Both the position numbers and the translations under genes were made by a program. Shown in pieces: positions 24,100 to 51,073 of a stretch of 64,000 nucleotides of DNA. A model generated the notes under the pieces. The model made no database searches, was not told where the DNA came from, and worked only from the letters and a program-made list of their open reading frames with translations. The stretch covers positions 627,366-691,365 of the forward strand of contig PSQN01000003.1 of the NCBI GenBank assembly GCA_002989075.1. Direction: 5' to 3'. Positions within the stretch are counted from its first letter, which is position 1. Every line of letters starts with the position of its first letter. The DNA is from Arthonia radiata (Eukaryota > Ascomycota > Arthoniomycetes > Arthoniales > Arthoniaceae).

Positions 24100-24605
24100 T
24101 GTTAAAAAGAGTGCAGAAAAGAAGAAGAATACTACTACAAAGAGTAGGAAGACGAGACTAGCTTGAGACTAGTGCAATACTTAGGCTTAATATAGGTACA
24201 ATACTTAGTAGCAAGGAGAAGCTATTATTATATTGTCTGTCTTACTAGCTAAAATTCTTTAGAGAGATTCTAGCTTATATATCTAAGTTTAGCGGCCTAT
24301 ATAGGACTTACTAGATATCTGTTCTTTTGATAGGGGCCAGATAACCTATAACTTACTGTATAAGACGGTAATTCCGTCTATCTAAAACTATTAGTCTTAG
24401 TCTATCTTATGTTGTCTTAGACTATAGACCAGCTGTCTAAGATAGGTTGTACAATGCTTCTTTTTGTCCTAGGCCCGGGCTACTAGGCCCAACCTTTAAG
24501 GTAAAAGGCTTGTTCTATTCTAGGCTAAGATAGCTAATAGGACCTATCCGATACTCTAGGTCTCTAGAGGTTCCGGCTAACCAGCTAGTTGGTTGATTTT
24601 CAACA
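24100..24605 (-). mobile_element. Solo copia LTR, TSD CTATC
   Basis: A 506-bp LTR in minus orientation flanked by CTATC at 24095-24099 and 24606-24610, inserted in the Gypsy3 reverse-transcriptase region. Confidence 0.95.
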
Positions 24606-26395: not shown

Positions 26396-28775
26396 TTAAA
26401 TAGGTAAACTATAGTAGATTTATACTTAAAGATATTTAAGAGGCCCTTATAGCTAGTACTAATAAGAAGTTAATTTATAGCTATTAAATTAAATACTATT
26501 AAAATAAAGAAGTTCTTCTATTTTATTTAAATCTACTGGTAGTTCTAAGCTTTTACTATATATAAGTAATTAAAGAGATATATATCTTACTAAAAATAAG
26601 ATATATTAGATTCAAAAAGATAGTCTTTACTATTAATTATATTAAATACTATAATCTTAGGTAAAATTACCTTCTTTATTAATACTTATAGAACTACTAC
26701 TACTATATATATAATAAGTATAACTACTAGCAATACTTAGAACTTTAATAGCTTATTAGTATTCTTTAGATTCTATAATAAGATATTTTAATAGATTTTA
26801 TAGTAGCTCTGCTAAATAATATCTAGTAAAATAACGCTATTCTTAATATTATTAATTAACTTAGTAAGGAATACTTTTATATTCTCTACTACTATAGTAA
26901 AGATAGTCTTTTTACTGAAAATACTACTAAACTGTTCTTTTATAACGTTTACTACTATATAAAGGCTTTAGAGACAACTATTACTAACTATAGAATCTCT
27001 TAAACTAATAACTTCTAAAAGATACTTACTAACCTAGCAGATATTAAGCTATACCTCTTAACTATCTACTATTTATAAACTAATAGGTAAACTAAGATTA
27101 TTAACTAAAAAATAGAGGCTTATCTTTAATACTACTACTTATAAAAGTAAAATAACTAAGATTATTAACTAAAAAATAGAGACTTATCTTTAATACTACT
27201 ACTTATAAAAGTAAAATAACTAATTTAAGTATCTTTTTATTATCTAATATACTATAGATTTAATAAAAAATATAACTACTAGAATTAAGTATCTTCTTAT
27301 TAGCTAAAGAATTATTCTAAGGTATAGTTTTAACTAACTAGACTCTCTATTAACTACTAAAACTATCTAAAATTGAGTTACTTTCTAAAATATCTAAACT
27401 ATTACTAACTAGTATAGTAATATTTAAAGCTTTATATATACTAAAATTAAAGAAAGCTAAAAATAAATAAAGTAGTAAGCTAATAAGTACTAAATAAATA
27501 TTAACTAGTAGCTAAGCTAGTAAATTTATCTCTTAATATATAATTTAAAGCTTATTTATTTAACTAAAAAACTAGAGTTTAAGTTTATAGGCCTCTTTAA
27601 GATTAAAAAGAAGATAAAAATCTTTTATAAGCTTAAGCTTTTATAGTTATATTATAAGGTTTACTTTGTCTTTTACTTTAATATTTTATAGCTTAATAAG
27701 AATAATCTTCTTCTTAAGCTAAGTAGCTAAAAACTCTCTATTAAAGGATATTAATAGTAAAAAAGAATATATTATTAAAAAAATTTAATTAATTAAGAAA
27801 ATAAGTAGAAGACTATAAGTATAAGTAAAATAGAAGAGCTATAATAATAACTTTAAGTAGTATCTTATTAATAATTTTAAGTATAGCTAAGTAGTACTTT
27901 AGAACTACTATAAGTATTATATATATATTTTTAAGCTTTAGTACTTAAATTTTGAATACTTAGAAGATAAAAATAAAAGTAAAGATAAGAGATAATAATC
28001 TATCTTTTATCTCTATTTTTCTAGTTTTTTTTTTATTTCTTTTAATTAAACTTCTTTTCTATTCTTTATAAATTATGAATATTCTTATTTTAGATAATAA
28101 CTCTATAATAATTCTACTAAAATATTATTATAGTAGCTCTATTATCTAACTTAACTACTTTTAATATACTTCTTTAGCTTATAATTAAGTTTAATATACC
28201 TATTAATATCTACTTTATAACTATATTATCTTTTAGCTCTATTAGTAGTAAAATAACTAATAATTCTATATATTTAATATAAAGCTTTACATTACTATTT
28301 AAGAGTTTATTAATACTCTTTATCTAAAGATTACTATATATGTTATAATCTTTTAGTACCTGTTCTACTATATAATTTAGAACTAGACTAAAACCCTCTA
28401 AAATACTTAAATTAGATTTCTTATTAGTGCTAATACTATTATTTAAAACTAGACCACTAATATTTGTCTTACTATAACTATTTTCTATTAATCTACTTAG
28501 CTTCTTAATTAGTACTAGCTTTATTTTATTTTTACTATCTATTTATTAGTAATTTAATTTAGTAGCCATCTATCTTCTTTAAGCTATAACTTTACTACTA
28601 GCTATATATACTATATCTTTCTTAAGTAAATATACAATAGTAGCAATAACTATTAGCTTTACGTAAATTAAACTAATTAGAGCTTTAAGTAACTTAACTC
28701 TATTATTAGTTACTAAGAACAATAAATAAGTTAACTTATTAGTGAATAAAAATATCTATCGGTCTAAAGAAGGGG

Positions 28776-29056: not shown

Positions 29057-29871
29057 ATAGCTTAAACTAAGAGAAAAGAAAGTCTTTATAATAATAAAAT
29101 AAGTAAAACTAGAGTAGAATTATAGTACCGTAGCTGTATTACGGCCGTTCTAGGCTCGCTCCAATTCTAGAGCGGCCCCGGGTCTAGATCGGCCTAGAGA
29201 CGTCTAGTATATAGAGGCGTCTATCTATATTCTTTTCTTGCTTCTTAGTTATTTGTCTATTGTCTAGCAAATATATTGTGCTTTGCTCTATTTACTACTA
29301 GCCCTATAAGAATTAGATAGTATTAAAGGCTTAGAATTATAAAGACTATAGAATAAAAATTATTAGAAGAATTTGGTTAGAAGTTTATATACGTTACTAG
29401 CTAATATTCTAAACTACTTAATCTAGAAATATTTAAAATTATCTAATTAGAAAGGTAGAAAGCTAGCTAAGTCAAGCTTAATTTATAATTATAATATATA
29501 CTATATTATAGATAATATTGAAAAAGATAGTAATTTTATCTCTAGTATATCTCTAGTAATTACCTCTTTAGAGAATTTTTTAGCTCTAGCTATATAGATT
29601 AATACATTGTATTCTTATTATTATAATTATAAATTAAGCTTAACTCGACCGGCTCTCTATCTTTCTAACCAGGCAATTTTAGGTATTTCTAGATTAGGTG
29701 GTTTAGAATGTTAGCTTGGTAACGTATATAAACTTCGGACTAAATCCTTTTAATAGTTCTTATTCTATAGTCTTTATAATTCTAAGCCTTTAGTACTATC
29801 TAATTCTGCTCTAGTTCTACTTGTTTTACTTATAAAAGATAACTTTATTTTAAATAATAAAGCTTATACAG
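29057..29871. repeat. Foldback-like inverted repeat with a small insertion
   Basis: The arm 29309-29495 is the reverse complement of 29620-29807 (about 188 bp, mainly transition differences) around a 124-bp centre. Homology continues outward: 29097-29122 pairs with 29808-29831 and, more weakly, to about 29057 and 29860. The left arm is split by 29123-29308. The right side abuts the Gypsy2B LTR at 29872. No open frame was recognised. It is a palindromic repeat, possibly a non-autonomous DNA transposon. Confidence 0.7.
29123..29308. mobile_element. 186-bp insertion flanked by AGAATTA, possible small LTR
   Basis: This GC-richer block interrupts the left arm of the inverted repeat; its absence from the right arm shows it is an insertion. 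AGAATTA occurs at 29116-29122 and again at 29309-29315. It starts TAGTACCG and ends CCCTATA, which could be TG...CA ends after RIP, and has a TATA-like stretch followed by a T-rich tract. A solo LTR of an unseen family is my best guess, though a 7-bp duplication is long for an LTR element. Confidence 0.45.
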
Positions 29872-30308
29872 TATAACGCCGGTCGCTGGGAGAACCAAAC
29901 TAAGGCTTACTTATCTTATATACTTATTAACCTTAGTAAGGGATATCTTATATACTAAAGACTAAAAGGCAGGAGAGGTAAGATAAATTATAAAGAGTAA
30001 GAAAGACTTAACTAAGTAAATAGAAGATAAAGTACGTTACTTAAATATAGGTAAAAAAATAATATTTAAGTATTAAGTTAATAATCTAAAGTTTATTTTA
30101 AAATTAGCTATTAGTTTAGCTATATAGTTTAAGATATATAAGGAAGTTTCTTTATATCTATTAGACTTAATAATATCTACATTAGATTTATAAAAATATA
30201 AGCTTTTAAAGCTGTTTTATTTAATAATGCTTATAGTAGGTTTATAAGCTTAGTTAAAAATAATAATAATAGAGCTAAAATAACTAATAGTAGTTAATAC
30301 TTAGAAAT
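29872..30308 (-). repeat. Gypsy2B 3' LTR, cut by a copia insertion
   Basis: Begins TATAACGCCGGTCGCTGGGAG, the reverse complement of the Gypsy2 LTR end, and stops at the copia LTR at 30309. Strongly RIP-mutated. Confidence 0.75.
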
Positions 30309-30816
30309 TATTAAAAAGTTGCAGAAAAGAAGAAGAATACTACTATAAAGAGTAGAAAGATGAGACTAGCTTAGAACTAGTACAATACTTAGACTTAGTA
30401 TAGATACAATACTTAGTAGCAAGGAGAAGCTATTATTATATTATCTGTCTTATTAGCTAGAATTCTCTAAAGAAATTTTAGCTTATATATTTAAGTTTAG
30501 CGGTCTATATAAGACTTACTAAATATCTATTTTTTTTAATAGAGACTAAATAACCTATAACTTATTGTATATAATAGTAGTTCTGTCTATTTAAAACTAT
30601 TAGTCTTTAAGTTTATTCTATATTATCTTAGACTATAAGTTAGCTGTCTAAAATAGATTATACAATACTTCTTTTTGTCTTAAACTTAGGCTACTAGGCC
30701 CGATCCTTTAGATAAAAGGCTTATTCTATTTTAAACTGAGATAGCTAGTAGAACCTATTTAATACTTCGGGCCTCTAAGGGTTTCAGCTAACTAGCTAGT
30801 TAGTTAATTTTTAATA
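30309..30816 (-). repeat. Copia tandem, left LTR (3' LTR of the left copy)
   Basis: 508 bp, strongly AT-shifted; the terminal TG and CA read TA. It joins the Gypsy2B LTR on its left side. Confidence 0.9.
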
Positions 30817-33800
30817 TATCTCCTTAATCGACTAGTTATTTTAGCCGGATTATAAGCTAATTTAAGTTCTAAATATTAGTATTTTAGCTAAGTCAATTAG
30901 TTTTATTGAACTGTCTGCTAATTGTTTCTTTATAAAAACGTATTTAAGCTCTATTTAGCCTGTTTAAACGTTTTCTCTAATATAGTAATACTGTATATTA
31001 ATATACTTAAATTTAGTTTAGAAGGTAGAGTTTTTTATAAGTTCTTTTGCTAAATTACTGTCGGTAAGTAATAGTTTTATTAGTAAAACTAGAGTCTTTA
31101 GTTTAATTTAACCAGCTTATCTAGGCAAATTTATGCTTACTTAATACTTTAGAGTCTGTCGAGTCTTTTTATCTACAGACTTTTTAAAAGTACCCGCTAA
31201 AACGGTAGTAATTAAATTTTCTTTAAAAATTCCGGACAGTTTAATAGCAATTAATCGGATAAATAATTATTTTTTATAGCTTCTTTAAGAACTATATATT
31301 TAGCCTTATAAGAGCTTAAGACGACTATTCTCTATAGCTTTAAATTTTAGCTAAGAGCTCTGTTTCTAAGTAGAAAGATGTAGCCGATAGTCGATCTTCT
31401 AGTACCAAAGTCTTTCTCCTAATTTACGTTATAATAGCTAGTTATACCGTCTATTAAGAGAGATTTATAGTAAAAGCTAAAGTTAAGAGTTTTATTTAAG
31501 TAAGCCTAAAGGCTACTTAAAACTCTCTAGTACTCTTTACTAAAATTCAATATATACCGGGCTAGTAGGCTAGTTGTAAAGGTAATATTAAGTCTTATCT
31601 TTGTTATTAGATATAAAATCGATTCAATTTGTTGCTAATAATTAGAAATATTAGTACTACTAGCTTAGTTAGGATTTAGTATTAATTTTAAGCCGACGGA
31701 CTGTAGTATTTTTCCAGGTATTCGGCCGTTTTTCTTTAAATATTTGGTTAAAATTTTAGCTAAATAAGTTAACTAGTCTAGACAAATCGTTTTTGCCGGG
31801 CGATCTCGAGTAATTTTAATTTCTAGAAACTTACTAACGTCTTTTAAGTTCTTAACTATAAGAGTCTTATTTAGTTTTTAGTAGATTTTAAAGATTGTTT
31901 CGGTAGAATTAAATACAGCTAATATATTGTTTATATAGGCGATTAAAATTACCTACTTTTTGGTTCTTTAAATATAAACCGACTAATTAGATACTAAAGG
32001 TTTAAAACTTATTTCCCTTAGTAATTCTTAAAGATAGGTTTTTTACTATTAGCCGGCCTATTTTAGACCGTAAAGGGCCTTCTTTATTTAATAAACTTTA
32101 TTAGTTCCGTTAGATAGGCCAGTTAGTTGCTTAATATAGATAATTTTGTCTAACTTTGCGTTAGAATAAGCTAATTTTACGTTCTATTGCTTTATTTCTT
32201 AGTCTTTTTCTGCTGCTAAGGCTAGTATAAGCCGATAAGTAATTAAATTTACTATATTTATAAAGGTCTCTATAAAATTAAGGCCGGGTCTTTGCTAGCA
32301 GCCCTTAACTATCTAGTAGGCTTTGAAAATTAGCTCGCTCTTTGAAGAATACTTAATTTTTAGTACTTAGCGTTCTTTTAGCGCCTTTCTACTCGGTAAT
32401 AGCTTAATTAATATCTAGGTTTCTTAGTTAACTAGCTCTTTGAGCTCCGACTATATTGCGTCTAGCTAAGAAGGCTAATTCTTAGATATTCTTATTTCTT
32501 TTAAGTTATTAGGCTCTTTAGTAACTATAACTAAGGTCTATTCGGTATATTGTTCTAAGTTATTATAGAACTCGTTAAACTAATTTTTATCGGCGTTTTT
32601 ATATATAAAATATATTTTCTGAGCGCAATCGATATCTACCCAGCTAAAGTCTTCAATACTTCTATAATCTAACTTAATAAAAATGTTAGACTTATTTAGA
32701 GCTCTAGTTTAGTATAGTTCTTATTTAGATTCGTCCGCTAGTGATTAAGATATAGAAAAGGTATACTATTCCTTATATAGAGGAATTCCTTCTTTATTAG
32801 GAGGTATCTCTCTATTATCTTAAGATTTAGCGGTCGAATTTAGCTTATTTTTAAACTTAACTTTTAGTTATTCTTTAAGCTCTTTAGAAATACTCTCGGT
32901 TAATTAATTAACTATAGATCTCTATAGGTTCTAAACAAATTTTTCTTCTTAAACATAGACGTCTCTCTCTTAGTAAATCTTCCGGCTATTAGAGTCTAAG
33001 AGCTTATATTAGTTCGATCTGTAGCCTATTAAGATATAAATAGTTGCTCTAGCGTCTAATTTTTTTAGTTTAGATTCTTTAAAATAAGTAACTAAGCCTT
33101 AAATTTTAATAGTACTAATATTCAGTTTTTTACCGTATTTTACTTTGTATAGGGTAATAAACCCTGATAATCTAGTATAGAGGGTTCTATTATAAATATA
33201 GATAGCTACTTTTAACGCTTTACCTTAATATATTTAAAGTAGCCCGGTAGTATAAAGCATTGCTCGAACTTTACTAACAATTGTTCGATTAAAGCGTTTA
33301 GCTTGTCTATTTTACTAAGAGATATATAGTATAAATATTATTAAAATAGCTTCTTTTTGTTTTAGAAGCTATTTTATCTAGCCTTTTTAATATTCTTTTG
33401 CGTTATTTAAGTATAATCTTTTAAAAGAATACTTAGATTACGTTTCTTCTTAAGTAATATAAGTAAATAGTACGTTAAAAATCTAGTCTTTAGACTATAG
33501 TACCTCGGTAGTCGTATACTGGGTTTTATTGTCTATAAAGTTAGTAAATAATTAACCTTTAGAAGAGATTTACGGTATAATTAGCTCGCAAATATTTAAG
33601 TAGACTTTTTCTAAATAATTAGTCAATTTATTAAGAGTTTTTTAGCTAATTTTAGCCGTTGTCTTTACTTTAAAGCAAATTTAGCAATTATCTTTCGATT
33701 TGTCCGAATAATTTATTTCTAGAGCAACATTTTTAAGCTATGTTAAGGCATTTTTGCCTATATATTCTATTTGTTAATACTAAAGGTTAGTTTTTAAAGA

Positions 33801-35208
33801 AATAGTATAAAGAGATTAGACTGTATTAATAGTCTAAGCTTTTATTACTATTAAACTGTTAATATACCGCTTCTCGGTAGTTAGTTATTCGGTCTAATTA
33901 ACTTTTAGCTTATTTTAGCTTAGAGTTACCTTATCTCTTCTCTTTCTAAGCTTATTAAAGTTTAGAAGGTTAATTCTAAATTCTTTAACAAATAAAACTT
34001 TGTTTAGAACAATTATTTTATCTTTAAAGAATAGTTTTATTTTACTTATTTATAAGGCTCGGATTAACTTTCCTTCTTCTTAACAAATAATCTAGTTAAT
34101 TGGCCAAATATCCGTTAAAAGGTTAATATTTAAGTAAATATAGCTTATTAAGCTTATATCGAGGATCTAAGAATTAGTAAAATAATTAATTCTATTTAGT
34201 AATACTATAAAGCATTGTTCTTCTTGTAAGTTAGAACTATATACAGAAAATATTAAAAAATCGTTATTTTTAGAGCTTTTATTAGAATTTAGCGGGAGAT
34301 TTAGATATTTTTTCTAATAAGTTGCCGGTTTATACCTCTTTTTGTTACAAAAGGGGTATTTTTCTTAGTTTTTACTTAAAATTTTTAATTTTTCTCTGAT
34401 TCTTTACGTTAATTTATTGTTTATTACAGTAAAAACCTTTTCTACTAGAATGCTACCGCGAATTTAGTAAGACTTGTTTATAAGTTAACTAAATAAGTTC
34501 TATAAACTTATATTGCTAGTCGTTTACCGGTAGCTTTAGCTAATAATAGCTACTACATGCTTATATTCGGAAGTTAAATTGTAAAGAATATAGATAGCTA
34601 CTACCTTGTTAAGTAGTACTAGTCCTCGGATTACTAAATTGTCCGTTAATTGTCTAATTTTAATAAGATAAAGCTTAAGGTTTTTTATCTTACTAAGTAT
34701 AGTACTAAAGAGCTCCTTACAAATTAGAAACTCGGAACTAAAACCTTTCGATTTGTGTAACCTTTTTAGACTATTATAAGGCTCTAGAGAGTTATAAATC
34801 CCCTTTATTTAAATAAGAGGACCGTTCTCTAAAGTTAGTCGAATAAGGGCTACTACCCTTGTTAACTGTTTTTAGCGGCTAGCTTTAGTAATATCTCTAG
34901 CTAAATAGCCAGAAAAGGGGATTATAACATTACTGTAGCTCTTTTTAGTTAAAAGGACCTCTATTCGAATCGACCAAATGTCTTAATTAGTTGAGCCCTT
35001 AAGTTTAGAAATCTTATAAGAGAAGTCTATAGCCGAATATATAGTCAGAGATTTCTAAAATAAAAAAAAGGAAATTCTGTTCTAATAGTTAAATTAGACT
35101 AAAGATTTAGAGTCGATTGATAATAGAATCGTTCGAAGGTACCAATAGATAAAAGATTTTCTAAAAAGGAAATTTAAAAGGAATTGGTACTAACCCGAGC
35201 TTATAACC
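30817..35208 (-). mobile_element. Copia tandem, left internal region
   Basis: It aligns end to end with 35716-39324 plus 46618-47403 on the same strand. In minus-strand order: gag (from about 35190 down), a zinc-knuckle region near 34340, integrase (about 33900-32900), reverse transcriptase (about 32450-31850) and RNase H (about 31450-30850). It is much more AT-rich than the right copy. Complete in length, with many breaks and no long open frame. Confidence 0.88.
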
Positions 35209-35715
35209 TGTTAAAAAGTTACAGGAAAAAAGAAGAATACTACTATAAAGAGTAGAAAGACGAAACTAGCTTAAAACTAGTACAATACTTAAGCTTAGTA
35301 TAGGTACAATACTTAGTAGCAAGAAGAAGCTGTTATTATATTATTTATCTTATTAGCTAAAATTCTCTAGAGAAATTTTAACTTATATATTTAAGTTTAG
35401 CGGCCTATATAGAACTTACTAAATATCTATTTTTTTAATAGAAGCTAGATAACTTATAACTTACCGTATAAAATAGTAATTTTATTTATCTAAAACTATT
35501 AGTCTCTAAGTCTATTTTATATTGTCTTAGACTATAGGCCAGCTGTCTAGAATAAGTTATATAAGGCTTCTTTTCATCTTAAACTCGGGCTACTAGGCCC
35601 AACTCTTTAAATAAAAGGCTTGTTCTATTCTAAACCGAGATAGCTGGTAGAATCTATTCGATACTCTAGACCTCTAAGGATTCCGGCTAACCAGCTAGTT
35701 GGTTAATTTCCAACA
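35209..35715 (-). repeat. Copia tandem, shared middle LTR
   Basis: 507 bp. On its right begins the 3' end of the right copy (polypurine side). On its left lie the primer-binding site and 5' end of the left copy. One LTR thus serves both elements. Confidence 0.9.
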
Positions 35716-38700
35716 CACTCCCTTAATCGACTAGTTGTTTTAGCCGGATTGTAAGCTAATTTGAGTTCTAAACGTAAGTATTTTAGCCAAGTCGATTGGT
35801 TTTGTTAAACTGTCTGCTAATTGTTCCTTTGTAGAAACGTATTTGAGCTCTGTTTGGCCTGCCTGAACGTTTTCTCTAACATAGTGATACTGTATATCAA
35901 TATGCTTAGATTTAGCTCAGAAGGTAGGGTTTTTTGCAAGTTCTTTTGCCGAATTGCTGTCGGTAAGTAACAGTTTTACCGGTAAAACCGGGGTCTCTGG
36001 TATAATCTAACCGGCTTGCCCGGGCAAATATATGCTTGTCTAGTACGTTAGAGCCCGCCGAGTCTTTTTATCCGCAGACTTTTTAAAAGTACCCGCTAAA
36101 ACGGTAGTAATCAAATTTTCTTTAAAAATCCCGGATAGTTCGGTAGCAATTAATCGGATAAATAACTGTTCCTTTATAGCTTCTTTAAGGGCCATATATT
36201 CGGCCTTACAAGAGCTTAAGACGACCGTTTTTTGTAGCTTCGAATTCTAGCTAAGGGCTCCGTTCCTGAGTAGAAAGATATAGCCGGTAGTCGATCTCCT
36301 GGTGCTGAGGTTCCCCTCCCAATCTGCGTTACAATAGCCGGTTATACCGTCTATTGAGGGAGATTTATAGTAAAGACCAAGGTTAGGAGTTTTATCTAAG
36401 TAAGCCTAAAGGCTACTTAAAACTCTTTAGTGCTTCTTACTAGGATTCAATATGTACCGGGCTAGTAGGCCAGTTGTAAAGGTAATATCGAGTCTTATCT
36501 TTGTTATTAAATACAAAATCGACCTAATTTGTTGCTAATAATTAGAAATATTAGTACTACTAGCTTAGTTAGGATTTAGTGTTAATTTTAAGCCGACGGG
36601 TTGTAGTATTTTTCCGGGCATTTGGCCGTTTTTCTTCGAGTATTTGGTTAAAATTTTAGTTAAATAAGTCGACTGGTCTAGGCAAATCTTTTTTGCCGGG
36701 CGATCTCGAGTAATTTTAATTTCTAGGAACTTACTAACGTCTCCTAAGTTCTTAATTGTAAGAGTCTTATTTAGTTTCTAGTAGATTCTAGAGATTGTTT
36801 CGGTAGAATCGGATACAGCTAATATATTGTCTACGTAGACGATTAAAATTGCCTGCTTTCTGGTTCTTCGAATATAAACCGACTGATCGAATACTAGGGA
36901 TTTAAAACCTATACCCCTTAGTAATTCTTAAAGATAGGCTTTCTACTGTCGGTCGGCCTGTTTCAGACCGTAAAGGGCCTTCTTTATTCAATAAACTTTA
37001 TTAGTTCCGTTAGATAAGCTAGTTGGTTACTCGATATAGACAACCTCGTCTAACTTTGTGTTAGAATAAGCTAATTTTACGTCCTATTGCTTTATTTTCT
37101 AGTCTTTCTCTGCTGCTAAGGCTAGTATAAGCCGGTAAATAATTAAATTTACTATATTCGCAAAGGTCTCTATAAAATCGAGGCCGGGTCTTTGCTGGCA
37201 GCTCTTAGCTACCCAGCGGGCTTTAAAAATCGGCTCGCCCTCCGGAGGGTACTTAATCTTCGGTATCCGGCGCCCTTTTAGCGCCTTTCTACCCGACAGC
37301 AGCTCGATTAATATCTAGATTTCTTAGTTAGCTAGCTCTTTGAGCTCCGACTGTATTGCGTCTAGCCAAGAAGGTTAATTCTTGGATACCCTCATTTCTT
37401 TTAAATTAGTAGGCTCTTTAGTAACTGCGACTAAGGCCTGTTCGGCGTATTATTCTAGATTATTGTAGAACTCGTCAAATTAAATTTTGTTAGCGTTTTT
37501 GTATGTAAAATCTATTTTCTGGGCGCAATCGGTGTCTATCCGGCCGGGGTCTTCGGTACTTTTATAATCTAACTCAGTAGGAAGGTTAGACTCGTTTAGA
37601 GCTCTAGATTAGTATAGTTTTTGTCTAGATTCGTCCGCTAGTTGTTGAGATATAGGGGAGATATATTGTTCCTCGTATAGAGGACTCCCTCCTTCATTAA
37701 GAGGTACCTTCCTATTATCTTAGGATCCAGCGGTTAAATTTAGCTTATTTTTGAACTCAACTTCTAGTTGTTCTTTAGGCTCTTTAGAAATACTCTCGGT
37801 TAATCGATTAACTATAGATCCCCGTAGATTACAAACAAATTTTCCTTCCTGAACGTAGACGTCTCTCCCCCAGTAAACCTTCCGGTTATTAAGGTCTAAG
37901 AGCTTATATTGGTTCGATCCGTAGCCTATTAGAATATAGGTAGTTGCTCTTGCGTCTAGTTTCTTTGGTTTAGGTTCTTTAAGGTAAGTAACTGAGCTCC
38001 AGATTTTAATAGTACTGATATTTAGTTTTTTGCTATATTTTGCTTCGTACAGGGTAATAAACCCCAGCAATCCGGTATAAGGGGTCCTGTTATAGATATA
38101 GATAGCTGCTTTTAGCGCTTTACCTCAATATATCTAGGGTAGCCCGACGGTATAAAGCATTGCTCGAACTTTATTAATAATTGTTCGGTTAAAGCGTTCG
38201 GCTCGTCCGTTTTACTGGGAGATATACGGTACGAATATCGTTAGAATAGCTTCTTTCTGTTCTAGAAGCTATTTTACCCAACCTTCCCGGTATTCTTTTG
38301 CGTTGTCTAAGTATAATCTTTTAAAAGAATGCTCGGACTGCGTTTCTTTCTAAATAATATAGATAGATAGTGTATCGAAAACCTAGTCTTTAGACTATAG
38401 TACCTCGGTAGTTGTATACCGGGTTTTATTGTCTATAAAGCTAGTAAATAATCGACCTTTGGAAGGGGTTTGCGGTACAATTGGCCTGCAAATATCTAAG
38501 TAGACTTTTTCTAAATAATTGGCCGATTTGTCTGGAGTTTTTCGGCTAACTTTAGCCGTTGCCTTTGCTTCGAAGCAAATTTAGCAATTATCTCCTAATT
38601 TGTCCAAATGATCTGTTCCTAGGGCAACTTTTTTAAGCTGTTTTAAGGCGTTTTCGCCTATATGTCCTATCCGTTGATGCCAAAGGTCAGTTTTTGAAGA

Positions 38701-39324
38701 AATAGTGTAGAGAGATCGGACTGTATTGATAGTCTGAGCTTCTATTACTATTAGGCCGTCAACATACCGCCCCTCGGTGGTTAGTTGTCCGGTTCAATTA
38801 ACTTTTGGCTTGTTTTGGCCAAGAGTTACCTTACCTCCCCTCTTTCTAAGCTTGTTGAAGCTTAGAAGGTTAATTCCGAATTTCTTAACAAACAAAACTT
38901 TGTTTAGAACAATTGTTTTATTCTTAAAGAACAGTTTTGCTTTGCCTGTCTAGAAGGCTTGGATTGACTTCCCCCCTCCCCAACGAATAATCTAGTTAGT
39001 TGGCCGGATATCCGTTAGAAGGTCAATATTCGAGCAAATATAGCTTATTAAGCCTGTATCGAGGATCTAAGAATTAGTAGAGTGATTGACTCTGTCTAGT
39101 AATACTGTAAAGCATTGCTCTTCTTGTAGGTTGAAACTATATACAGAAAACATTAAAAAATTGGTGTTTTTGGAGCTTTTATTGGAATTTAGCCGGAGAT
39201 TTGGGTATTTTTTCCAATAAGTTGCCGGTTTATGCTCCTTTTTGTTGCAAAAGGAGCATTTTTCTTGGTTTTTACTTAGAGATTTTAATTTTCTCCGGTT
39301 CTTTGTATCGATTTGTTGTCTATT

Positions 39325-39774
39325 TGTTACGATCTTACTATATTGGGCTAGTATAGAGCTAAGCGCAGCCAGCCTTATTAAAGCATCATACAGCATACCC
39401 GACAACTTCAATATAGCGACGTCGGCAACGTCGCTATATCGCAATAGAATCCCGACTACGCGATAAAAAGACTGTCGGGACCGTTAAACACAGAGAAACA
39501 TACCTATATACCTTAGACTATATAGCTAGACTAATAACCGACCTTAGAATAGACTTTAGTCTATTAACTTAACATTTAAATATAAGTTCCTTAACTATAT
39601 TTAAGTAACGTACTTTACCTTCTGTTTACTTTAGTCAAGCCTCTTTTACCTTCTATAATCTGTCTCGCCTCTCCTATCTTTTAGTCTCTAGCACACAAAA
39701 CACCCACTACTAAGGTTAATAAGTACACAAGGTAAGTAAGCCTTAGTTCGGTCCTCCCAGCGACCGACGTTATA
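39325..39774 (+). repeat. Gypsy2 5' LTR
   Basis: 450 bp, TGTTACGATC...CGTTATA. By eye it differs from the 3' LTR at about forty positions, all transitions, with no length change. Confidence 0.93.
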
Positions 39775-42700
39775 CTTTAACAGACTCGCTACAAAAGCAG
39801 AGAAAGTAGATTAATTATATCTACTACTTCGGCACCCAACAGCCGCGACGCTGCGGATAGATTAGCCAACAGAATAACTAGCACAAGTAAGATATTAAAC
39901 GTTAACACTAAGATAGGAAAAAGCTTCTTAGATAAATGTTCCGAAGTTACTTTATTTTTAATACGCCTAGCTATATACTTTAAAACTTATAAAGACTAGT
40001 TCCTAAACAATACTACTATAGTTTTATTTGCTATCTCTTATATAGATAGAGATACCTATAAGTAAGTTAAGTACTACCTCGACGATTTCTTGTTTACTCC
40101 GATAAAGAGTAGGCGCAAGGATACCGACGAGTTCTTTGCTAGCTTTATCTTCTTTTAGAAGAAGCTTCGTAAAATCTTTAGACAGACCGACGCTGGACGC
40201 GTCGCTATTAGGAAGCTTAGGAACCTTAAGTAGATAGAACCAGCGAGCAGATACGCCGTCGAATTTATATAGTATACTAATTAAACAGAATAAGACAAGA
40301 AACCCCTTATCGAGACCTTTTATAAAGGACTTAAGAATTATGTTAAGAAAATAATTTATATTCGTAGAGAGAAGTTCGATGATCTCGACAACTTTATACA
40401 ACGAGCAAAGGAGATCGACGACAGTAACTTCGAAAGACAAATAAAAAAGAAGGGTAACCCTACTAATAGGTTCTATAGAATAAAGAATCGAGCAAACTTA
40501 CGATAAGACCGAGGCAATTCAATAGAGTTAGATTTTATCAAGCTTCGGGGGAAACTAAACAACCAGAAACGAGAATACAGAATAAAGAACAAGCTATGCT
40601 TATATTGCAGAAAACCAGGGCATTAAGTTAAAGAATGCCGTTTCAAGAAACAATAGTTCAACAGTACCGGCAGAAACGGGCACAACAACCGATCTTAGAA
40701 ACCCTGTCTTCTACGACAACAGTTTAATATAACTACTCAGACAAAAGAGGACAATAGTCGCGATAAGGCAATAAAACTACTAGCAGCCTTCTCCGACCGC
40801 TGATAGAAGGACCCGACCGAGGGTTGTCTTCTCTAAAAATTAGGTCTCTTACAGAAGACTATCCAGAACTAGTATAAGTACGTTACTAGACTAACTAAGG
40901 AGCAGAAGGACATCTACTGGAATACCTTCTGTAACTAGAAAAACACTCACTAGGTTTCGTTCAATAAGAAGCATAACGAGTAGAACTTATTTAACTTACA
41001 CAAAAACTAGGACACAGACATTAAGTTATAAGAAGAAACAAAGAAACAACAAATAAAATAGGAACAACAAAATCTACAGGACTGGAACAACATTAACTAT
41101 ACTATTCTAAGGCATTAGATACTAAGTACCGTTATACCACACAAAACACTATTCTAAACCGCGTGCTACGATAACAATTGTACGATCTATAAATCTAACA
41201 AACAAGAATTAGGATGATAGCCGAAGAAACTAATATCTTTGAAACAAGATTCGATACAAGAACTAGACCTTATCCGAGGACAACCTAAGTTATCTTATCT
41301 AAAGACCTAAGAGAAATCTAAGGAAGAATAGACCGTAGAAGCTAAGCAAGATAGTAGCTACAATACGTTACAGACAAAACAACGACTCGAAGACAAAAAT
41401 ATAGATTCTAATAGTACAGAATCCTCGCTTAAGAACGATTATAACTAGAAAGAGCAAACCTCAATCCGTTGGAAAGAAATAATATAGAGACTTTATTAGT
41501 TAGCCTTTTACGATAGAAAGTTAAGCGCTAATAGAGATATTAATAATATTCTAGGATATATTTACTTACGCTTATAACAACTAGTAAACCACCTTATTAG
41601 GGGTTTAGAATTGCGTAGTTAGTACTAATATCTTCGACTAACAATATATAACCTACAGATACGATAGGTTTTAACTAGCGATAGTTATATAATTAAAGCA
41701 GGGATCGTAAACGACAAACTAGACGTTATAATAAAAGTAGTACTAGAACACCCTATACAGGCATTCTTACAGCAAATTAACCGACAATAGGTTCCGGTAC
41801 CTAAAATACTCTAGAACGTATACGATTAACAGAGAAAAGACTAGGCCGACTGCTTTAAGGGCAGTAGTATCGGCCCGTTCAACGGTTAGACTCTCTAGAA
41901 GTCTAGCTCTACGCGAGCTTAACTACCTATAGAATATATATGTATACTCGGGCAACAATAAACTATAGAAGCATTAAAATTATAATCGATTTAGACGCAA
42001 TAGGCAACTTTATCTTAATACGCTACGTTAAGGAGTACTAAATATAAACATAAAAGAAGAAATTACCCTACGTACTGTTTAGATTTTAAGGAGCAGAGAA
42101 AAGAGTTAACTACAAGACTTTGCTAATAGGTATAATAATTGAAGACTATTAGAAAGAAATTACTTATAATATTATAGATATTAACTAGTATTACGCCGTA
42201 CTAGGTATACCCTAGTTGCAACAATATAACCTAGAAGTAGATTAAAGAACTAAGAAACTTCTCTTTACTAGATACAAGCACTCTAGATAAGAGTCGTTCT
42301 GCGGAATAGATACTTTACAAGCTATTTTTAGTAGTAAGAATAAGGAGCGCGATAAAGAACTTATACGGGTTAGTACTACTATACTCTAACATTTAGACAT
42401 CTTACAAGAAAAGTCTAACGCAGTATCTTATCTGTAGCCAACTACGCGCAAGTATAAATAAGAGACAACTATACGCCAACGATTCTATACGACAACAAGT
42501 ACTCAGTTAATTACTAAGATACCCGAAAAATACAATTAATTTCGATATCTATTTAAGGAAGCTGAGCCGGACTTAGCTCTCCTAGAACACAAACCGTAGG
42601 ATTATACAATACCTTTATAAGAAGGCAAGACGCCAACATTTGGTTCAATATACTCCCTATTAGAAGCAGAAAATTAAGCGCTCTGCGACTATCTTAACAA

Positions 42701-45399
42701 AAATCTTAAGAAAGAATTTATCTAAAAATTAATATTACTAGCCGGATACCTGATACTCTTCGTACCAAAGAAGAATAGTAAACTACGACTCTACGTAGAT
42801 TATAGACAATTAAACAGAGTAACTATTAAAAACCGGTACCCTTTACTACGCATCGACAAAATAACAGACCGATTGTATAACGTACAATAGTTTACTAAGT
42901 TTAACCTATAAAGAGCCTATAACTTAATCTGTATAAAGGAAGGTAAAGAATGAAAGACGGCCTTCTAAACTAGATACAGACTTTTTAAGTATTGCGTTAT
43001 ACCTTTTAAGCTAATAAACGTACTAGTATTATTTTAGAAACTAATTAACAACACACTTAGTAATTATCTGGACATATTTATAACTGCTTACCTAGACGAT
43101 ATCCTAGTATACAGCTAAATACTAGAAGAACATAAAGAACATATTAAGAAGGTATTAGAAAGATTGGCGCGTGCCGATTTATAAATTAATATCGAGAAAA
43201 TACAGTTTTACCAACAATCTGTCGAATTTCTTAGATTTATAATTACCGAATACGGTCTCTAAATGAAAGATTCGAAGATCTAATCTATTCTAATCTAGCC
43301 TATACTAAAGAATATAAAACAATTACAACAGTTTCTTAGTTTTGTTAACTACTACAGGCGATAGATATTTAACTTTAGCCAAATTATAGCACCGCTGTCT
43401 CAACAGACAAAATAATCGACAGGATTCTTCTAGACGCAAAAAGAACAATCAGTATTCAAAGAGCTTAAGGAAGCTTTTAAGATCGGGCCCGTACTAGCAA
43501 TATTCGACCCTAACCTGCCGATTATTATAGAAACAGACGCGTTAGACTATATAATTAGAGTATGTATAAGTTAAAACAACAAAGAAAGAAAGCTTAGACT
43601 AGTAGCTTTCTACTCGAGAAAGATATTACCTATAGAATAGAATTATAATATCTACAATAAAGAGCTCTTAGCTATTATAGCAGCATTCGAAACATAGCGA
43701 GCTTACCTAGAAGGAGCAAACTATACAATTATGTATACATAGACTATAAGAACCTAACTTACTTTATAACAATAAAGAAACTTAATTGCAGATAAGTTAG
43801 ATAGTTAAAGACTATAACTCTATACAACTTTATTATTATCTACAAAAAGGGTTTTAAGAACGATAGAGCCGACGCTCTAAGCCGACGTTTAGATTACCTT
43901 AATAACAAGAAACACGTCGAACACGCAATATTCCGAGAACACAATAATGAGATTAGATACAATTAATTGGCTATAACAATCGAGTTTGTTATCGAACTAG
44001 ACAGCCGAATTCTAGATATCCTAAACGACCCTAAGACCTACTAGAAAAACGAGAAACAACACCTAGGATTAACTAAGAACAATAAAGGCTATTACAAATT
44101 TTAAGGTAAAATCTATGTTCCGAGGAATCTAATCCAATATATTATTAGTAACTTCTACGATAACCTAACAAAGGGACACAAGGGCATCGACAACACTATT
44201 AAAAAGATTACATAAACCTACTATATTCCGAGAATCTAACACTACGTCGAGAACTATATCCAAGAATGTAATATATACGCAAGAACCAAGCACCCGAGGT
44301 ATTTACTATACAGTAAACTATAATTACTAGAAACACCCGAGAGACTATAGTATACAGTCTTACTAGACTTTATTACTAAGCTACTAACCTTTAGGGATCT
44401 ACTTACAGAAGTAGTCTACGATGCTATTCTAGTTATATACGACAAACTAACAAAGTACGCGTACTTCGTATCTTACAAGGAAGCTAGCAATTTAGAACAA
44501 TTAGTATATACATTCCTTCGGATTATCCTGGCAAACTATAGTTAACCACAAAAAATTGTCTTAGACAGAGACCAAAAATTCGTCTTGCGATTTTAAATAT
44601 CCCTAATGCAACAACTAGAGACAAAATAAAAGATATCTACGTTATTTTATCCGCAAACAGATAGACAAATAGAACGGACAAATTAAACGTTAGAACAATA
44701 TCTGCGGGCATATATTAACTACTAGTAAAACGACTGGGTACAATTACTACTAGTAGCGCAAGTAGCGTACAACGATACAAAGAACGATATAACCAAGATA
44801 ACACCGTTCTATATCTTATACGGCTATTACCCTCTTTAGGGTAGATAACTACAAAACACTATAGAAAACGATACTGCTACGCGAATAGCAACGAATATAA
44901 AAACCCTGCACCAGCAGTTAAAGGCAGACAGCGAGTTTATTAACGAACAAACAAGAAAATAGTATAACAAGTTAAGAACTACCTTAAACACAGGTATAAA
45001 AGAGGGGGAAAGAGCTTACTTACTTATAAGAAATATAAAAACTATCAGACTAAGCAAGAAACTTAACTATACTAAGACAAGACTGTTTAAAATCTTATAG
45101 CAATTGGGACTCATAACATTCAAACTTAAACTTCTAAAGATAATAAGAATATATCCTATATTCTACGTAGCGCTGTTAGAACCAGCCTATTTCCGAGAAG
45201 TAGAACGACCTAACTCAGAAATCCTTTCTAACAATTAAGAACCCGAGTATAAGGTCGAAATAGTTCGAGCTTACAGATAATACCGAGGCAAACGACAGTA
45301 TCTTATAAAGTAGAAAGAATATTCCGAATACAAAAATTAATGGAAACCGAAATAAAACCTAATTAACTATAAAGACACTATTTAACGATATTAGAACTA

Positions 45400-46147
45400 G
45401 AATATTAATCGGTCGTAGTAACACTAATACTCTAATCTACTATCTAATGTACCTTACCGGCACTTAGGTTACCTATAAACGAACCAGCCTACTATATTAG
45501 TAGCCTACTATCTAACTTTAGAAACGGATTATTACGAAAATCTATACTTAGGCTACTTAGCACATCTACGATATTACTACCGAACATAGCCGCCAACCAT
45601 TCTTCTTTAAACAATATGTTATTCTAATTTATTTTGTTCTGCGCCTAGATACGCAACCTTTCGAGCTTCTTCTTTAAATCTATAACCGCCGCTTTAGTAA
45701 CTTTACGCTACCTTTTTGCCGTACGAACGACTTTCTTCTCTTTCGCTAAACGCTTACGTTGCTTCTAGAGGGCATTCGACACCTATAAGTACTAAGAACA
45801 GATACTCCGAGCTAAAATAGATTAAATTTATATTAAAAAACAGACGTAGGATAGGAACTAACCATTCTCTAACAACGGGTGAACGTTACACAACTTCTTG
45901 TTACAAGTATACATAAAACACGATACCTTCCTAAACTTTAGAACACACTTCTTACTTAAATAAGCGCAGCGGGAATATAGAGGCATCTCTCGGCTATAGA
46001 CTTCAACGAGGACAGTATTAATCTTAAGCGCTTTATTAGCGTTAAAAACTTTCTTAACTTTAGGTATAACGACTTATAGAACTAGATCTACTATAGAGAG
46101 ACAACAAAGTTTTAATGTCTTTAGGGCCGTTAAGGACGACTAGCCTT
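45400..46147 (-). other. Gypsy2 3' region with antisense coding signal
   Basis: Between the chromodomain and the polypurine tract the minus strand has protein-like stretches. One from about 46060 to 45880 is cysteine-rich, with paired cysteines and His spaced like a zinc-binding fold. Another from about 45770 to 45640 is a lysine/arginine-rich, coiled-coil-like segment. The plus strand here shows no comparable signal. No family was recognised, and the cysteine spacing only loosely recalls transposase C-terminal zinc ribbons. Fossil remnant, interrupted. Confidence 0.4.
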
Positions 46148-46162
46148 AAAGAGGGGATCTTG

Positions 46163-46612
46163 TGTTACGATCTTACTATATTGGGCTAGTATAGGGCTAA
46201 GCGCAGCCAGCCTTATTAGAGCATTATACAGTATACCTAACGACTCTAATATAGCGACGTTAGCAACGTCGCTATATTGCAATAGAATTTCGATTACGCG
46301 ATAAAGAGACTATCGAGACCGTTAGACACAGAGGAACATACTTATATACCTTAGACTATATAGCTAAACTAATAACCGACCTTAGAATAGACTTTAGTCT
46401 ATTAACTTAATATCTAAATATAAGTTTCTTAACTATATTTAAGTAACGTACTTTACCTTCTGTCTACTTTAGTTAAGCCCCTTTTACCTTCTGTAATCTG
46501 TCTCGCCTCTCCTGTCTTTTAGTCTCTAGCACACGAGACATCTACTACCAAGGTCGATAAGTATACAAGGTAAGTGAGCCTTAGTTCGGTCCTCCCAGCG
46601 ACCGGCGTTACA
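46163..46612 (+). repeat. Gypsy2 3' LTR
   Basis: 450 bp, TGTTACGATC...CGTTACA, the less mutated of the pair. It carries an inverted motif, TAGCGACGT...ACGTCGCTA, near 46253-46275. Confidence 0.93.
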
Positions 46613-47403
46613 CTATTGCAGTAAAAACCTTTTCTGCTGGGGTACTACCGCGGATTCGGCGAGACTCGTCTATAAGTTAACTAAATAAGTCCTGTAGACT
46701 TATATCGCTAGTCGTTTACCAGTAGCTCTAGCTAATAATAGCTACTGTGTGCTTGTATTCGGAGGTTAGATTGTGAAGGACGTAGGTAGCTACTACCTTG
46801 TTGGGTAGTGCTAGTCCTCGGGTTGCCAAATCGTCCGTTAATTGTCTAATTTTAGCGAGATAAAGCTCAAGGTTTTTTACCTTACCTAGTATAGTGCTAA
46901 AGAGCTCCTTGCAAATTAGAAACTCGAAACTAAAACCTTTCGATTCGTATAACCTTTTTAGGCTATTTCAAAGCTCTAGAGAATTATAAATCCCCTTTGT
47001 TTAAATAAGGGGACCGTCCTCTAGAGTTAGTCGAATAAGGGCTGCTGCCCTTGTCGACCGTTCCTGGCGGCTAGCTTCGGTAATATCTCTAGCTAAATAG
47101 CTAGAAAAAGGGATTATAACATTACTGTAGCCCTTTTTAGTTAAAAGGGCCTCCATTCGAATCGACCAAATGTCTCAATTAGTAGAGCCCTTAAGTTTAG
47201 GGATCTTGTGAGAGGAGTCTATAGCCGAATATATGGTCGGAGATTCCCAAAAAAAGGAAATTCTGTTCTAATAGTTGAATTGAGCTCAAAATTTAGAGTC
47301 GATTGGTAATAGGATCGTCCGGAGGTGCCGATAGGTGTCGTAGAGGAAATATTTTCTAAAAAGGAAATTCGAAAGGAATTGGTGCTAACCCGGGCTTATA
47401 ACC

Positions 47404-47910
47404 TGTTCAAAAAGGTACAGGAAAGAAGAAGAATACTACTACAAAGAGTAGAAAGACGAGATCAGCTTAAAACTAGTACAATACTTAGGCTTAATATAGG
47501 TACAATACTTAGTAGTAAGGAGAAGCTGTTATTATATTGTCTATCTTGTTAGCTAGAATCCTCTAGAGAGATTCTAGCTTATATATCTAAGTCTAGCGGC
47601 CTGTGTAGGACCTACTAGATATCTGTTCTTTTAAATAGAGGCCAGACAACCTATAACTTACTATATAAGACGGTAATTTCGTCTATCTAAAACTATTAGT
47701 CTTAGTCTATCCTGTGTTGTCTTAGACTATAGGCCAGCTGTCTAGAACGGATCGTACAATGCTCCTTTTTGTCTTAGGTTCGGGCTACTAGGCCCGATCC
47801 TTTAGGTAAAAGGCTTGTTCTATTCTAGGCCGGGACAGCTGGTAGGACCTGTCCAATACTCCGGGCCTCTAAGGGTTCCGGCTAACCAGCTAGTTGGTTA
47901 ATTTTTAACA
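47404..47910 (-). repeat. Copia tandem, right LTR (5' LTR of the right copy)
   Basis: 507 bp, minus orientation, with the primer-binding site on its left side (about 47391-47403). Its right end joins copia internal sequence of opposite orientation at 47911. Confidence 0.9.
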
Positions 47911-50390
47911 TTATACTACCGGGCTACTTTAGATATATTAAGATAAAGCGCTAAAAGTAGCTATCTATATTTATAATAGGACTCCTTATACTAGATTACT
48001 GGGGTTTATTACCCCGTATAAAGTAAAATACGGTAAAAAACTGAATGTTAGTACTATTAAAATTTAGAGCTTAGTTACTTATCTTAAAGAACTTAAATTA
48101 AAAAAACTAGACGCTAGAGCAACTACCTATATCCTAATAGGCTACAAATCGAACCAATATAAGCTCTTAGACCCTAATAGCCGGAAGATTTACTAAGGAA
48201 GAGACGTCTACGTTTAGAAAGAAAAATTTGTTTAGAACCTACAACAGTTGGAGCTTAAAGAGCTAGCTGACTAAGAAACCTAGATATTAACCAAGCTACC
48301 GCCGGGTAGAAAGGCGCTAAAAGGGCGCTAGATACTAAAGATTAAGTATTCTTTAAAGAGCAAACCGATTTTTAAAGTCCGCTGGGTAGCTAAGAGCTGT
48401 TAGCAAAGACTTAGCCTCAATTTTATAGAGATCTTTACGAATATAGTAAATTTAATTACTTAACGGCTTATATTAGCCTTAGTAGCAGAGAAAGACTAAG
48501 AAATAAAGCAATAGAACGTAAAATTAGTTTATTCTAACGTAAAGTTAGACGAAGTTATCTATATTAAGCAACTAACTAGCCTATTTAACAGAACTAATAA
48601 AGTTTATTAAATAAAGAAGGCCCTTTACGGTCTAAAATAGGCCGACCAATAGTAAAAAATCTATCTTTAAGAATTACTAAGGAGAATAGATTTTAAACCT
48701 CTAGTATCTGATTAGTCAGTTTATATTTAAAAAACTAAAAAGCAGGCAATTTTAATTATCTATGTAGACAATATATTAGCTGTATTTAATTTTACCGAAA
48801 CAATCTTTAGAATCTATCAGAAACTAAATAAGACTCTTATAGTTAAGAACTTAGGAAACGTTAGTAAGTTTCTAGAAATTAAAATTATTCGAGATTGTCT
48901 AGCGAAAACGATTTGTCTAGACTAGTCGACTTATTTAGCTAAAATTATAACTAAATATTCGAAGAAAAACAGCTAAATGCCTGGGAAAATACTGTAGTCC
49001 GTCGGTTTAAAATTAATACTAAATCCTAATTAAGCTAGCAGTGCCAATATTTTTAATTATTAGCAACAAATTAGGTTAATTTTATATTTAATAATAAAGA
49101 TAAGACCCGATATTACCTTTATAACTAACCTACTAGCTTAGTACATATTAAATTCTAGTAAGAAGTACTAGAGAGTTTTAAGTAGCCTTTAAGCTTACTT
49201 AGATAAAACTTTTAACCTTAGCCTTTACTATAAATCTCCCTTAATAGACGGTATAACCGGCTATTATAACGTAAATTGGGGGGAAGACCTTAATACTAGA
49301 AGATCGACTATCAGCTATATCTTTTTACTTAGAAACGGAGCCCTTAGCTGAAATTTAAAGCTATAAAAAATAGTCGCCTTAAGCTCTTATAAGGCCGAAT
49401 ATATAGCTCTTAAAGAAGCTATAAAGAAATAGTTATTTATCTAATTAATTGCTACCGAACTGTCTAAAATTTTTGAAGAAAATTCGATTACTACCGTTTT
49501 AGCGGGTACTTTTAAAAAGTTTGCGGATAAAAAGACTCGGCGGGCTCTAACGTACTAAATAAGCATAAATTTGTCCGAGTAAGCTAGTTAAATTAGACCG
49601 GAGACTCTAGTTTTGTCGGTAAAACTGTTACTTACCGACAGCAATTTAGCAAAAGAACTTATAAAAAACTCTATCTTCTAAACTAAATCTAAGTATATTG
49701 ATATACAGTATTACTATATTAGAGAAAATGTTTAGACAGGCTAAATAGAGCTTAAATACGTTTTTATAAAGAAACAATTAGCAGACAGTTTAATAAAACT
49801 AATCGACTTAGCTAAAATACTAACGTTTAGAACTTAAATTAGCTTATAATTCGGCTAAAATAACTAGTCGATTAAGAGAGTATATTAAAAATTAACTAAC
49901 TAGCTAGTTAGCCGAAACTCCTAGGAGCCTAGAGTATTAAATAGGTTCTACTAGCTATCTCGATTTAAAATAGAACAAGCCTTTTATCTAAAGGGTCGGG
50001 CCTAGTAGCCCGAGCTTAAAACAAAAAGAAGCATTATACAACCTATTTTAGACAGCTAGCTTATAGTTTAAGACAATATAAAATAAACTTAAAGACTAAT
50101 AGTTTTAGATAGACAAAATTACTATCTTATATAGTAAGTTATAAGTTATCTAGCTTCTATTAAAAAGAACAGATATTTAGTAAGTCTTATACAGACCGCT
50201 AAACTTAAATATATAAGCTAGAATCTCTTTAGAGAATTCTAGCTAATAAGACAGACAATATAATAACAGCTTCTCCTTGCTACCAAGTATTGTACCTATA
50301 CTAAGCCTAAGTATTGTACTAGTCCCAAGCTGGTCTCGTCTTTCTACTCTTTATAGTAGTATTCTTCTTCTTCCCTGCACCTTTTTAACA
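47911..50390 (+). mobile_element. Copia3: 3' half of a copia element
   Basis: Plus-oriented copia internal sequence beginning inside integrase, at the equivalent of about 21121 in Copia1. It runs through reverse transcriptase and RNase H to a 3' LTR (49883-50390, 508 bp). The 5' LTR and gag are absent. The left end coincides exactly with the end of the opposed LTR at 47910. Heavily AT-shifted and broken. Confidence 0.88.
49883..50390 (+). repeat. Copia3 3' LTR
   Basis: 508 bp, starting TATTAAAAATT (TGTTGGAAATT after RIP) and ending CTTTTTAACA. It is followed by Gypsy2B leader sequence. Confidence 0.9.
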
Positions 50391-50919
50391 ACTAAAGTAG
50401 TAAATATAATTAATTTACTTTCTTTACTTTTATAGCGAGTTTATTAAAGTATAATTCTAGTCGCTAAGAATATTAAATTAAGGTTTACTTATCTATATAC
50501 TTATTAACCTTAGTAAGAGGTATCTTATATACTAAAGACTAAAAGGTAAAAGAGATAGAATAGATTATAAAAAGTAAGAGGAGCTTAACTAAGTAAATAA
50601 AAGATAAAGTATATTACCTAAATATAGTTTAGAAACTTATATTTAAATATTAAGTTAATAAACTAAAGTTTATCTTAAGATTAGCTATTAGTCTAGCTAT
50701 ATAGTCTAAGGTATATGGGGAAGTTTCTCTATATCCGTTAAGCCCGACAATACTTATATCGGGTTTATAGGGAATATAGGCTTTTAAAGCCGTTTTGTCC
50801 GATAATGCCTACAGCGGACTTATAAGCTTAGTCGGGAATGATGCTGATAGGGCTGAAATAACTGGCGGTTGTTGACACTTGGAAATGCGCTAGACCGTCT
50901 GGAGCTGGTGCTCGTAACA
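50391..50919 (-). mobile_element. Gypsy2B 5' LTR and leader, island edge
   Basis: The leader fragment is 50391-50449 and the LTR 50450-50919, ending CTCGTAACA (TGTTACGAG in element sense). The left half is saturated with RIP-type changes. From about 50740 the sequence keeps CG, CAG and CTG and looks nearly unmutated. Confidence 0.8.
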
Positions 50920-51073
50920 TATAGATAAGTATATTAGTAGTTAATTATATAGGAAACCTTTATTATAATTAATCTATCATCTAGTTAGAGTATTATATAG
51001 TACCTTAATTTATTCTATTAATACTTCTACTCGTTTTATAAAGTAGCTAAGTATCTGATTCTACTATAGAATC
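50920..51073. other. AT-rich spacer between island and UGGT stop codon
   Basis: 154 bp of TAG- and TTA-rich DNA between the last LTR and the UGGT stop. It probably includes the UGGT 3' untranslated region. Its composition resembles the RIP-mutated repeats rather than the genes to its right. It belongs to no repeat I can identify in the window. Confidence 0.55.

Follow-up and report, generated by a model that had tools for sequence, protein, structure and literature searches.

In the 64,000-nucleotide window analysed here (Arthonia radiata assembly GCA_002989075.1, contig PSQN01000003.1, positions 627,366 to 691,365 of the forward strand), a nest of long terminal repeat (LTR) retrotransposons at 29867-50924 contains two copia elements, designated A and B, that have a single LTR in common and lie between the remains of two further elements, Gypsy2B and Copia3. 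The nest is anomalous in four respects, namely the shared LTR, the unlike outer flanks of the copia array, a Gypsy2B element with both LTRs but almost no body, and a Copia3 element without its 5' half. We consider it likely that one LTR-LTR recombination between two copia insertions of the same orientation, with deletion of the DNA from one copia to the other, explains all four anomalies. The rationale for invoking only one event is that everything between A and B had to go. A preliminary description of this DNA had put forward such a model, and the analysis supports it: the hybrid middle LTR, the pairing of the two Gypsy2B LTRs and the position of Copia3 in the Gypsy2B leader all came out as the model needs.

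Two copia interiors share one LTR between unmatched flanks

The layout of the nest was taken from self-alignment and inspection of element edges, and the coordinates are collected in Table 1. From left to right, the nest consists of a truncated Gypsy2B 3' LTR, copia A, the shared LTR, copia B with a Gypsy element nested inside, the 3' part of Copia3, 59 bp of Gypsy2B leader and the Gypsy2B 5' LTR. The two copia interiors with one common LTR that had been described at 30309-47910 resolve into an LTR-interior-LTR-interior-LTR array of one family and one orientation, with LTRs at 30309-30816, 35209-35715 and 47404-47910, and the middle LTR has a primer-binding side on one flank and a polypurine side on the other. 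The Copia3 remnant comprises 1972 bp of interior and the 3' LTR, and the reported loss of its 5' half exactly from 47911 is confirmed by three relatives in the window that continue uninterrupted across that point. Self-alignment and element edges likewise reproduced the description of Gypsy2B (a name that comes from the preliminary description) as an element with both LTRs, TACAG/TATAG flanks and almost no body, the body being absent from the locus.

The protein evidence bears on element type and strand. Of eight stop-to-stop pieces of copia B, five have matches to copia-type Pfam families, arranged on the minus strand as gag, GAG-pre-integrase, SH3 and RVT_2; the gag_pre-integrs, SH3_retrovirus and one RVT_2 match (E 8.3e-08) are over the cut-off, and Retrotran_gag_2 (E 0.00027) and a second RVT_2 (E 0.001) are under it. 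The copia-type gag and integrase side thus stand ahead of the reverse transcriptase, as the copia class of LTR retrotransposons demands, and this order agrees with the earlier assignment of the copia elements to the minus strand. For the Gypsy at 39325-46612, one of eight plus-strand pieces gave a weak RVT_1 match under the cut-off (E 0.0068). Rfam gave no matches at gathering scores.

Inspection of the edges confirmed that the outer flanks of the array are unlike, with GAAAT (30304-30308) on the left and TTATA (47911-47915) on the right, and C-to-T or G-to-A changes alone cannot link these two motifs. GAAAT is normal Gypsy2B LTR sequence and TTATA is normal copia interior, and related copies run uninterrupted through both. 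Unmatched flanks are not the norm in this window, where identical 5-bp duplications were found at six other insertions: the four solo copia LTRs that could be delimited (1805-2310, GATTA; 8510-9014, ACTTT; 24100-24605, CTATC; 25891-26395, TTAAA), the nested Gypsy (CTATT/CTATT) and an element with LTRs of ~197 bp (TAAAG/TAAAG). Since these four solo LTRs retain intact duplications, LTR-LTR recombination has acted in the window.

The middle LTR as a probable A/B hybrid

A fundamental question is whether the middle LTR belongs to A, to B or to both. Eleven copia LTR copies were aligned, and repeat-induced point mutation (RIP), a fungal genome defence, was scored at columns whose only variation is C/T or G/A. 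These columns were selected for varying among these copies, so that the fractions are relative; the mutated state was found at 70% of 1267 sites across the left LTR of A, interior A and most of the middle LTR, and at 20% of 942 sites across the remainder of the middle LTR and interior B. A single switch at 35677/35678, inside the shared LTR, gave a gain of 280 log units, as against at most 7.9 in 300 shuffles. The interval within 3 log units of the best switch is 35658-35684, and a fixed-rate fit with a flat prior placed the switch within 35610-35705 (99%). Moving it to 35209 cost 71 log units and moving it to 35715, where the LTR ends, cost 8.3; a non-homologous join placed precisely at the border of LTR and interior was rejected on account of the latter loss. 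Control switches within single elements gained 6.3 (A interior), 5.7 (B interior), 7.6 (Copia3) and 14.0 (left nest) log units. When the middle LTR was scanned alone, its switch fell at column 477 and was reached by 1 of 500 permutations, and at the right end of this LTR 2 of 13 variable sites are mutated versus 8 of 13 in the left LTR of A. The pattern is RIP-like: with B as reference, C-to-T changes in A are more frequent at CpA (163/232) than at CpG (124/286), CpC (104/323) and CpT (94/534).

Characters outside the RIP classes mostly point the same way. Four non-private differences of this kind distinguish the left LTR of A from the right LTR of B, namely an extra base near the start, position 11, a TA at 299-300 and a 1-bp run length at column 224, and the middle LTR is A-like at the first three. 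Position 11 is T only in the left LTR of A and the middle LTR among the 11 copies; the extra base is present in the right LTR of B and in the LTRs at 1805 and 24100 and not in the middle LTR; and the TA, missing from the right LTR of B and others, is retained in the middle LTR. Position 90 is also A-like, and as a G/A difference it could be RIP. On this sequence evidence, the middle LTR looks like a hybrid of A and B.

Over its left part, the middle LTR shows 79-89% identity with the other aligned copies, including 83% with the right LTR of B, and these values suggest that the two partner LTRs were ~80-87% identical. Near the best switch point, at 35667-35682, the left LTR of A and the right LTR of B have 16 identical bases in common.

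The Gypsy2B ends and the position of Copia3

For Gypsy2B, 30 matches were fetched, one of which is the window's own copy. The LTR alignment held the two LTRs of the window and 29 others (27 loci and the two LTRs of L021, with L031 excluded). Both window LTRs carry four minority characters that occur together in only one of the 29 others (L021b), a haplotype that was spotted post hoc in the same alignment and with no prior prediction. This haplotype, together with a flank pair that is one C/T change apart, favours the reading that the two LTRs are the ends of one element.

The preliminary description had also placed Copia3 in the Gypsy2B leader, and comparison with relatives bears this out. Here 59 bp of leader separate the 5' LTR from the Copia3 LTR and the continuation is missing, whereas in 26 of 29 relatives the leader continues as conserved sequence where Copia3 stands in the window. 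The main matches of the remaining three (L012, L021 and L031) are without leader continuation, and the second LTR of L031 does align into the leader. The two relatives fetched to gauge the length of an intact Gypsy2B both appear nested or rearranged. On a separate contig, L035:283-1231 and L035:5094-6042 (G000:C15) form a 949-bp direct repeat of 100% identity, which points to duplication in the very recent past or to an error in the assembly.

Search for lost neighbours and for further copies of the junctions

Neither the Gypsy2B body nor any further part of Copia3 turned up in the 84 kb made up of the window and the 10 kb to either side of it. The preliminary description had pointed to such a check for lost neighbours nearby, and only chance-level matches came of it: probes for the missing sequence (the 33-bp Gypsy2B end and the 30 bp ahead of the Copia3 break) gave, beyond known copies, one match each in the 84 kb, with 4 and 3 purine/pyrimidine mismatches, respectively, which is about chance by our estimate. 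The reciprocal junctions were not found in the same 84 kb.

The 120-bp left junction matched whole only here, in 1 of the 41 matches listed, and the 120-bp right junction in 1 of the 42 listed, with 40 of 449 and 40 of 547 candidates scored, respectively. A primer-binding and a polypurine side on a single LTR occurred only at this locus among the 40 + 40 scored junction matches. A copia insertion at the same Gypsy2B site elsewhere was considered and rejected, in that no Gypsy2B LTR ends at the copia LTR of the four gapped left-junction matches fetched. No second three-LTR array was found genome-wide with 40 of 495 and 40 of 419 candidates scored, which makes this a weak statement; the same scored matches gave 10 element-like pairs, seven of them 4.1-4.4 kb.

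Table 1. Components of the retrotransposon nest, in window coordinates.
Feature	Position	Strand	Basis or remark
Gypsy2B target duplication, left (TACAG)	29867..29871	none	partner TATAG one C/T change away
Gypsy2B 3' LTR, truncated, without the 33 bp matching 50887-50919	29872..30308	-	self-alignment, edges
Copia A 3' LTR (left LTR), strong RIP load	30309..30816	-	edges, LTR alignment, RIP scan
Copia A interior, ~70% of RIP-variable sites mutated	30817..35208	-	self-alignment, RIP scan
Shared (middle) LTR, putative hybrid of A 5' LTR and B 3' LTR	35209..35715	-	non-RIP characters and RIP switch
Putative crossover, 99% interval, best point 35677	35610..35705	none	fixed-rate fit
Copia B interior, 3' part (RVT_2, SH3, GAG-pre-integrase pieces), ~20% mutated	35716..39324	-	RIP scan, Pfam
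Gypsy insertion inside copia B, CTATT duplication on both sides	39325..46612	+	self-alignment, edges
Copia B interior, 5' part (gag piece, primer-binding side)	46613..47403	-	self-alignment, Pfam
Copia B 5' LTR (right LTR)	47404..47910	-	self-alignment, edges, LTR alignment
Copia3 interior, 3' part only, first bases TTATA at copia B boundary	47911..49882	+	self-alignment, edges
Copia3 3' LTR, then single flank ACTAA	49883..50390	+	edges
Gypsy2B leader beside its 5' LTR, interrupted by Copia3	50391..50449	-	edges, comparison with relatives
Gypsy2B 5' LTR, complete	50450..50919	-	edges, comparison with relatives
Gypsy2B target duplication, right (TATAG)	50920..50924	none	edges

A model for the history of the nest

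In the model that we favour, copia A (minus strand) would have entered the 3' LTR of a minus-strand Gypsy2B and Copia3 (plus strand) its leader, and copia B (minus strand) would have inserted into Copia3. The right LTR of A would then have recombined with the left LTR of B, through homologous recombination or single-strand annealing. Such an event would have cost Gypsy2B its body and 33 bp of LTR, Copia3 its 5' part including the 5' LTR, and the copia pair one LTR, and its product would be a single hybrid LTR that links two full interiors, with the join near its right end and a best point at 35677. A separate Gypsy inserted into copia B at 39325, before or after the fusion. Copia B is probably younger than A and Copia3, because it carries less RIP than either (171 of 802 sites mutated in B, as against 270 of 454 in Copia3, its insertion host). 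The fusion most likely followed most of the RIP in A, because A and B still contrast sharply across the join. RIP after the fusion is expected to strike both halves of the linked repeat, and for this reason most of the excess in A probably predates it.

Several observations weigh against this model. LTRs that are ~80-87% identical are poor substrates for homologous recombination. The right LTR of B and the Copia3 LTR, each scanned alone, also show weak RIP switches (reached by 23 and 10 of 500 permutations, respectively), so that LTRs are not perfectly even in their RIP load. The run-length difference at column 224 is found in the left LTR of A, in Copia3 and in the LTR at 23553, yet not in the middle LTR. 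Moreover, the last 207 bp of the shared LTR (past position 300) contain no non-RIP difference between A and B, and the B origin of its right end therefore rests on RIP state. Lastly, by transversion distance 10 of the 29 other Gypsy2B LTRs are closer to the window's 3' LTR, and 23 of 29 closer to its 5' LTR, than the two are to each other; as a test of the pair, this measure was set aside since it does not single the pair out.

How else could such an array arise? One possibility is that a break removed the Gypsy2B body and half of Copia3, and that a fresh copia complementary DNA (cDNA), the future B, was incorporated, one of its ends by recombination with the LTR of A and its other end by end-joining to Copia3, without any B insertion ever having existed in Copia3. 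Capture of this kind would yield the hybrid LTR, the RIP contrast and the partnerless TTATA equally well. However, it requires a rarer pathway, and the right end of B has an exact LTR terminus at 47910/47911 like ordinary insertions, although a captured full-length cDNA would have one too; we regard it as unlikely. An identical-looking product would also follow from unequal exchange, whether between homologous chromosomes, between sister chromatids or with a nested copy elsewhere, in place of an intrachromosomal deletion. The near-matching flanks and common haplotype of the Gypsy2B LTRs indicate that the partner would probably have been the same locus; with each junction whole only here among the matches listed and the reciprocal junctions missing from the DNA scanned, such an exchange appears distinctly improbable.

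An error of assembly that joined two copia loci would be expected to leave its false join inside an LTR, which is where the switch lies. However, the copies are far from identical, with the shared LTR matched elsewhere at best at 89% over 503 bp (40 of 514 candidates scored) and the stretch across the switch at best at 92% over 190 bp (40 of 495 candidates scored), the window is without N in an assembly of 33.5 Mb in 16 contigs, and the two outer Gypsy2B ends fit each other, all of which makes misassembly very improbable. It is scarcely credible that the array is a single element made tandem, by unequal crossing-over of its own LTRs or cDNA integration into its own LTR. Although the same order of three LTRs and two interiors would result, equal outer flanks and a like RIP load in both interiors are predicted, whereas GAAAT and TTATA differ by transversions and the loads found are ~70% and 20%; the left LTR of A and the right LTR of B also differ at non-RIP sites, two of which (the start indel and the TA at 299-300) segregate in the family.

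Other features of the window

The array is not the sole copia in the window with unmatched flanks. The left-hand copia at 10629-23987 is bordered by TAAAG and CTAAT, is interrupted by the element with ~197 bp LTRs and TAAAG duplications, and has a right LTR that is 73 bp short; a weak RIP switch (a gain of 14) was found in this copia, and it may be another inter-element product. A simple inversion between this copia and the array was rejected, the four flanks remaining unpaired after reverse-complementing by hand. Among the 11 aligned LTR copies, the solo LTRs at 8510 and 25891 carry the lowest RIP loads.

Over most of 1-51000 the guanine plus cytosine (GC) content per 2 kb is 17-43%, and past 52000 it is 54-57%. 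Across 51000-64000, the AT-rich repeats give way at a sharp border to a block of ~54% GC with genes for a UGGT-like, a Myb-domain and a sugar-transporter protein and a weak F-box-like one. The UGGT-like protein (51077-55657) has its closest match in Coniocarpon cinnabarinum (64% identity over 96%), one unnamed protein reaches 65% over 89%, and the next named matches are from Chrysothrix (53%) and Alyxoria (54%); all three genera belong to the Arthoniomycetes. Directly left of the Gypsy2B nest, at 29309-29807, lies a 0.5-kb imperfect palindrome that is 77% self-complementary, and at 27090-27217 a 64-bp unit stands twice head-to-tail (98% identical) in AT-rich DNA.

Relation to known systems

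Recombination between LTRs of different elements is already known, and this locus is a well-resolved new example. Homologous unequal recombination products between LTR retrotransposons are described for plants in PMC7251063, with citation of Shirasu 2000 and Vitte and Panaud 2003; the present middle LTR belongs to the same kind, but in a RIP fungus, where RIP tells the two parents apart. Ten LTR-IN-LTR-IN-LTR complex elements of Arabidopsis are reported with LTRtype (PMC5379124), where a figure legend names LTRs of two different elements. Three LTRs and two interiors in one orientation are common to those elements and to the present array; here, in addition, RIP load places the join within the shared LTR and the deleted nest can partly be named. 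In Sclerotinia sclerotiorum, unequal target repeats of copia copies have been read as the outcome of recombination between similar elements (PMC5004834), and the likeness lies in the RIP fungus and the differing target repeats, although the passages of that paper on these copies describe neither a three-LTR array nor a mapped join. For crapaud in Podospora, PMC10787394 describes solo LTRs formed by LTR-LTR recombination and, under RIP, a GC distribution of full copies with two peaks; the reaction is the same, there within one element and here between two. The unusual part may be the use of the RIP contrast to place and order the event. A literature search that combined repeat-induced point mutation, nested LTR retrotransposon and recombination breakpoint found no paper, which is thin evidence.

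RIP is often held to protect genomes from recombination between repeats through the divergence it creates. We hypothesize, with confidence evenly divided, that a strongly RIP-mutated copia LTR still recombined with a fresh LTR ~80-87% identical to it, near short perfect matches, and that RIP contrast can serve as a general recorder for dating and mapping ectopic recombination in RIP fungi. The order of events can be read at this locus, with mutation of one parent probably preceding the fusion. Should this hold more widely, abrupt shifts in RIP load within LTRs would provide a simple genome-wide test of how often mutated repeats still recombine and remove DNA.
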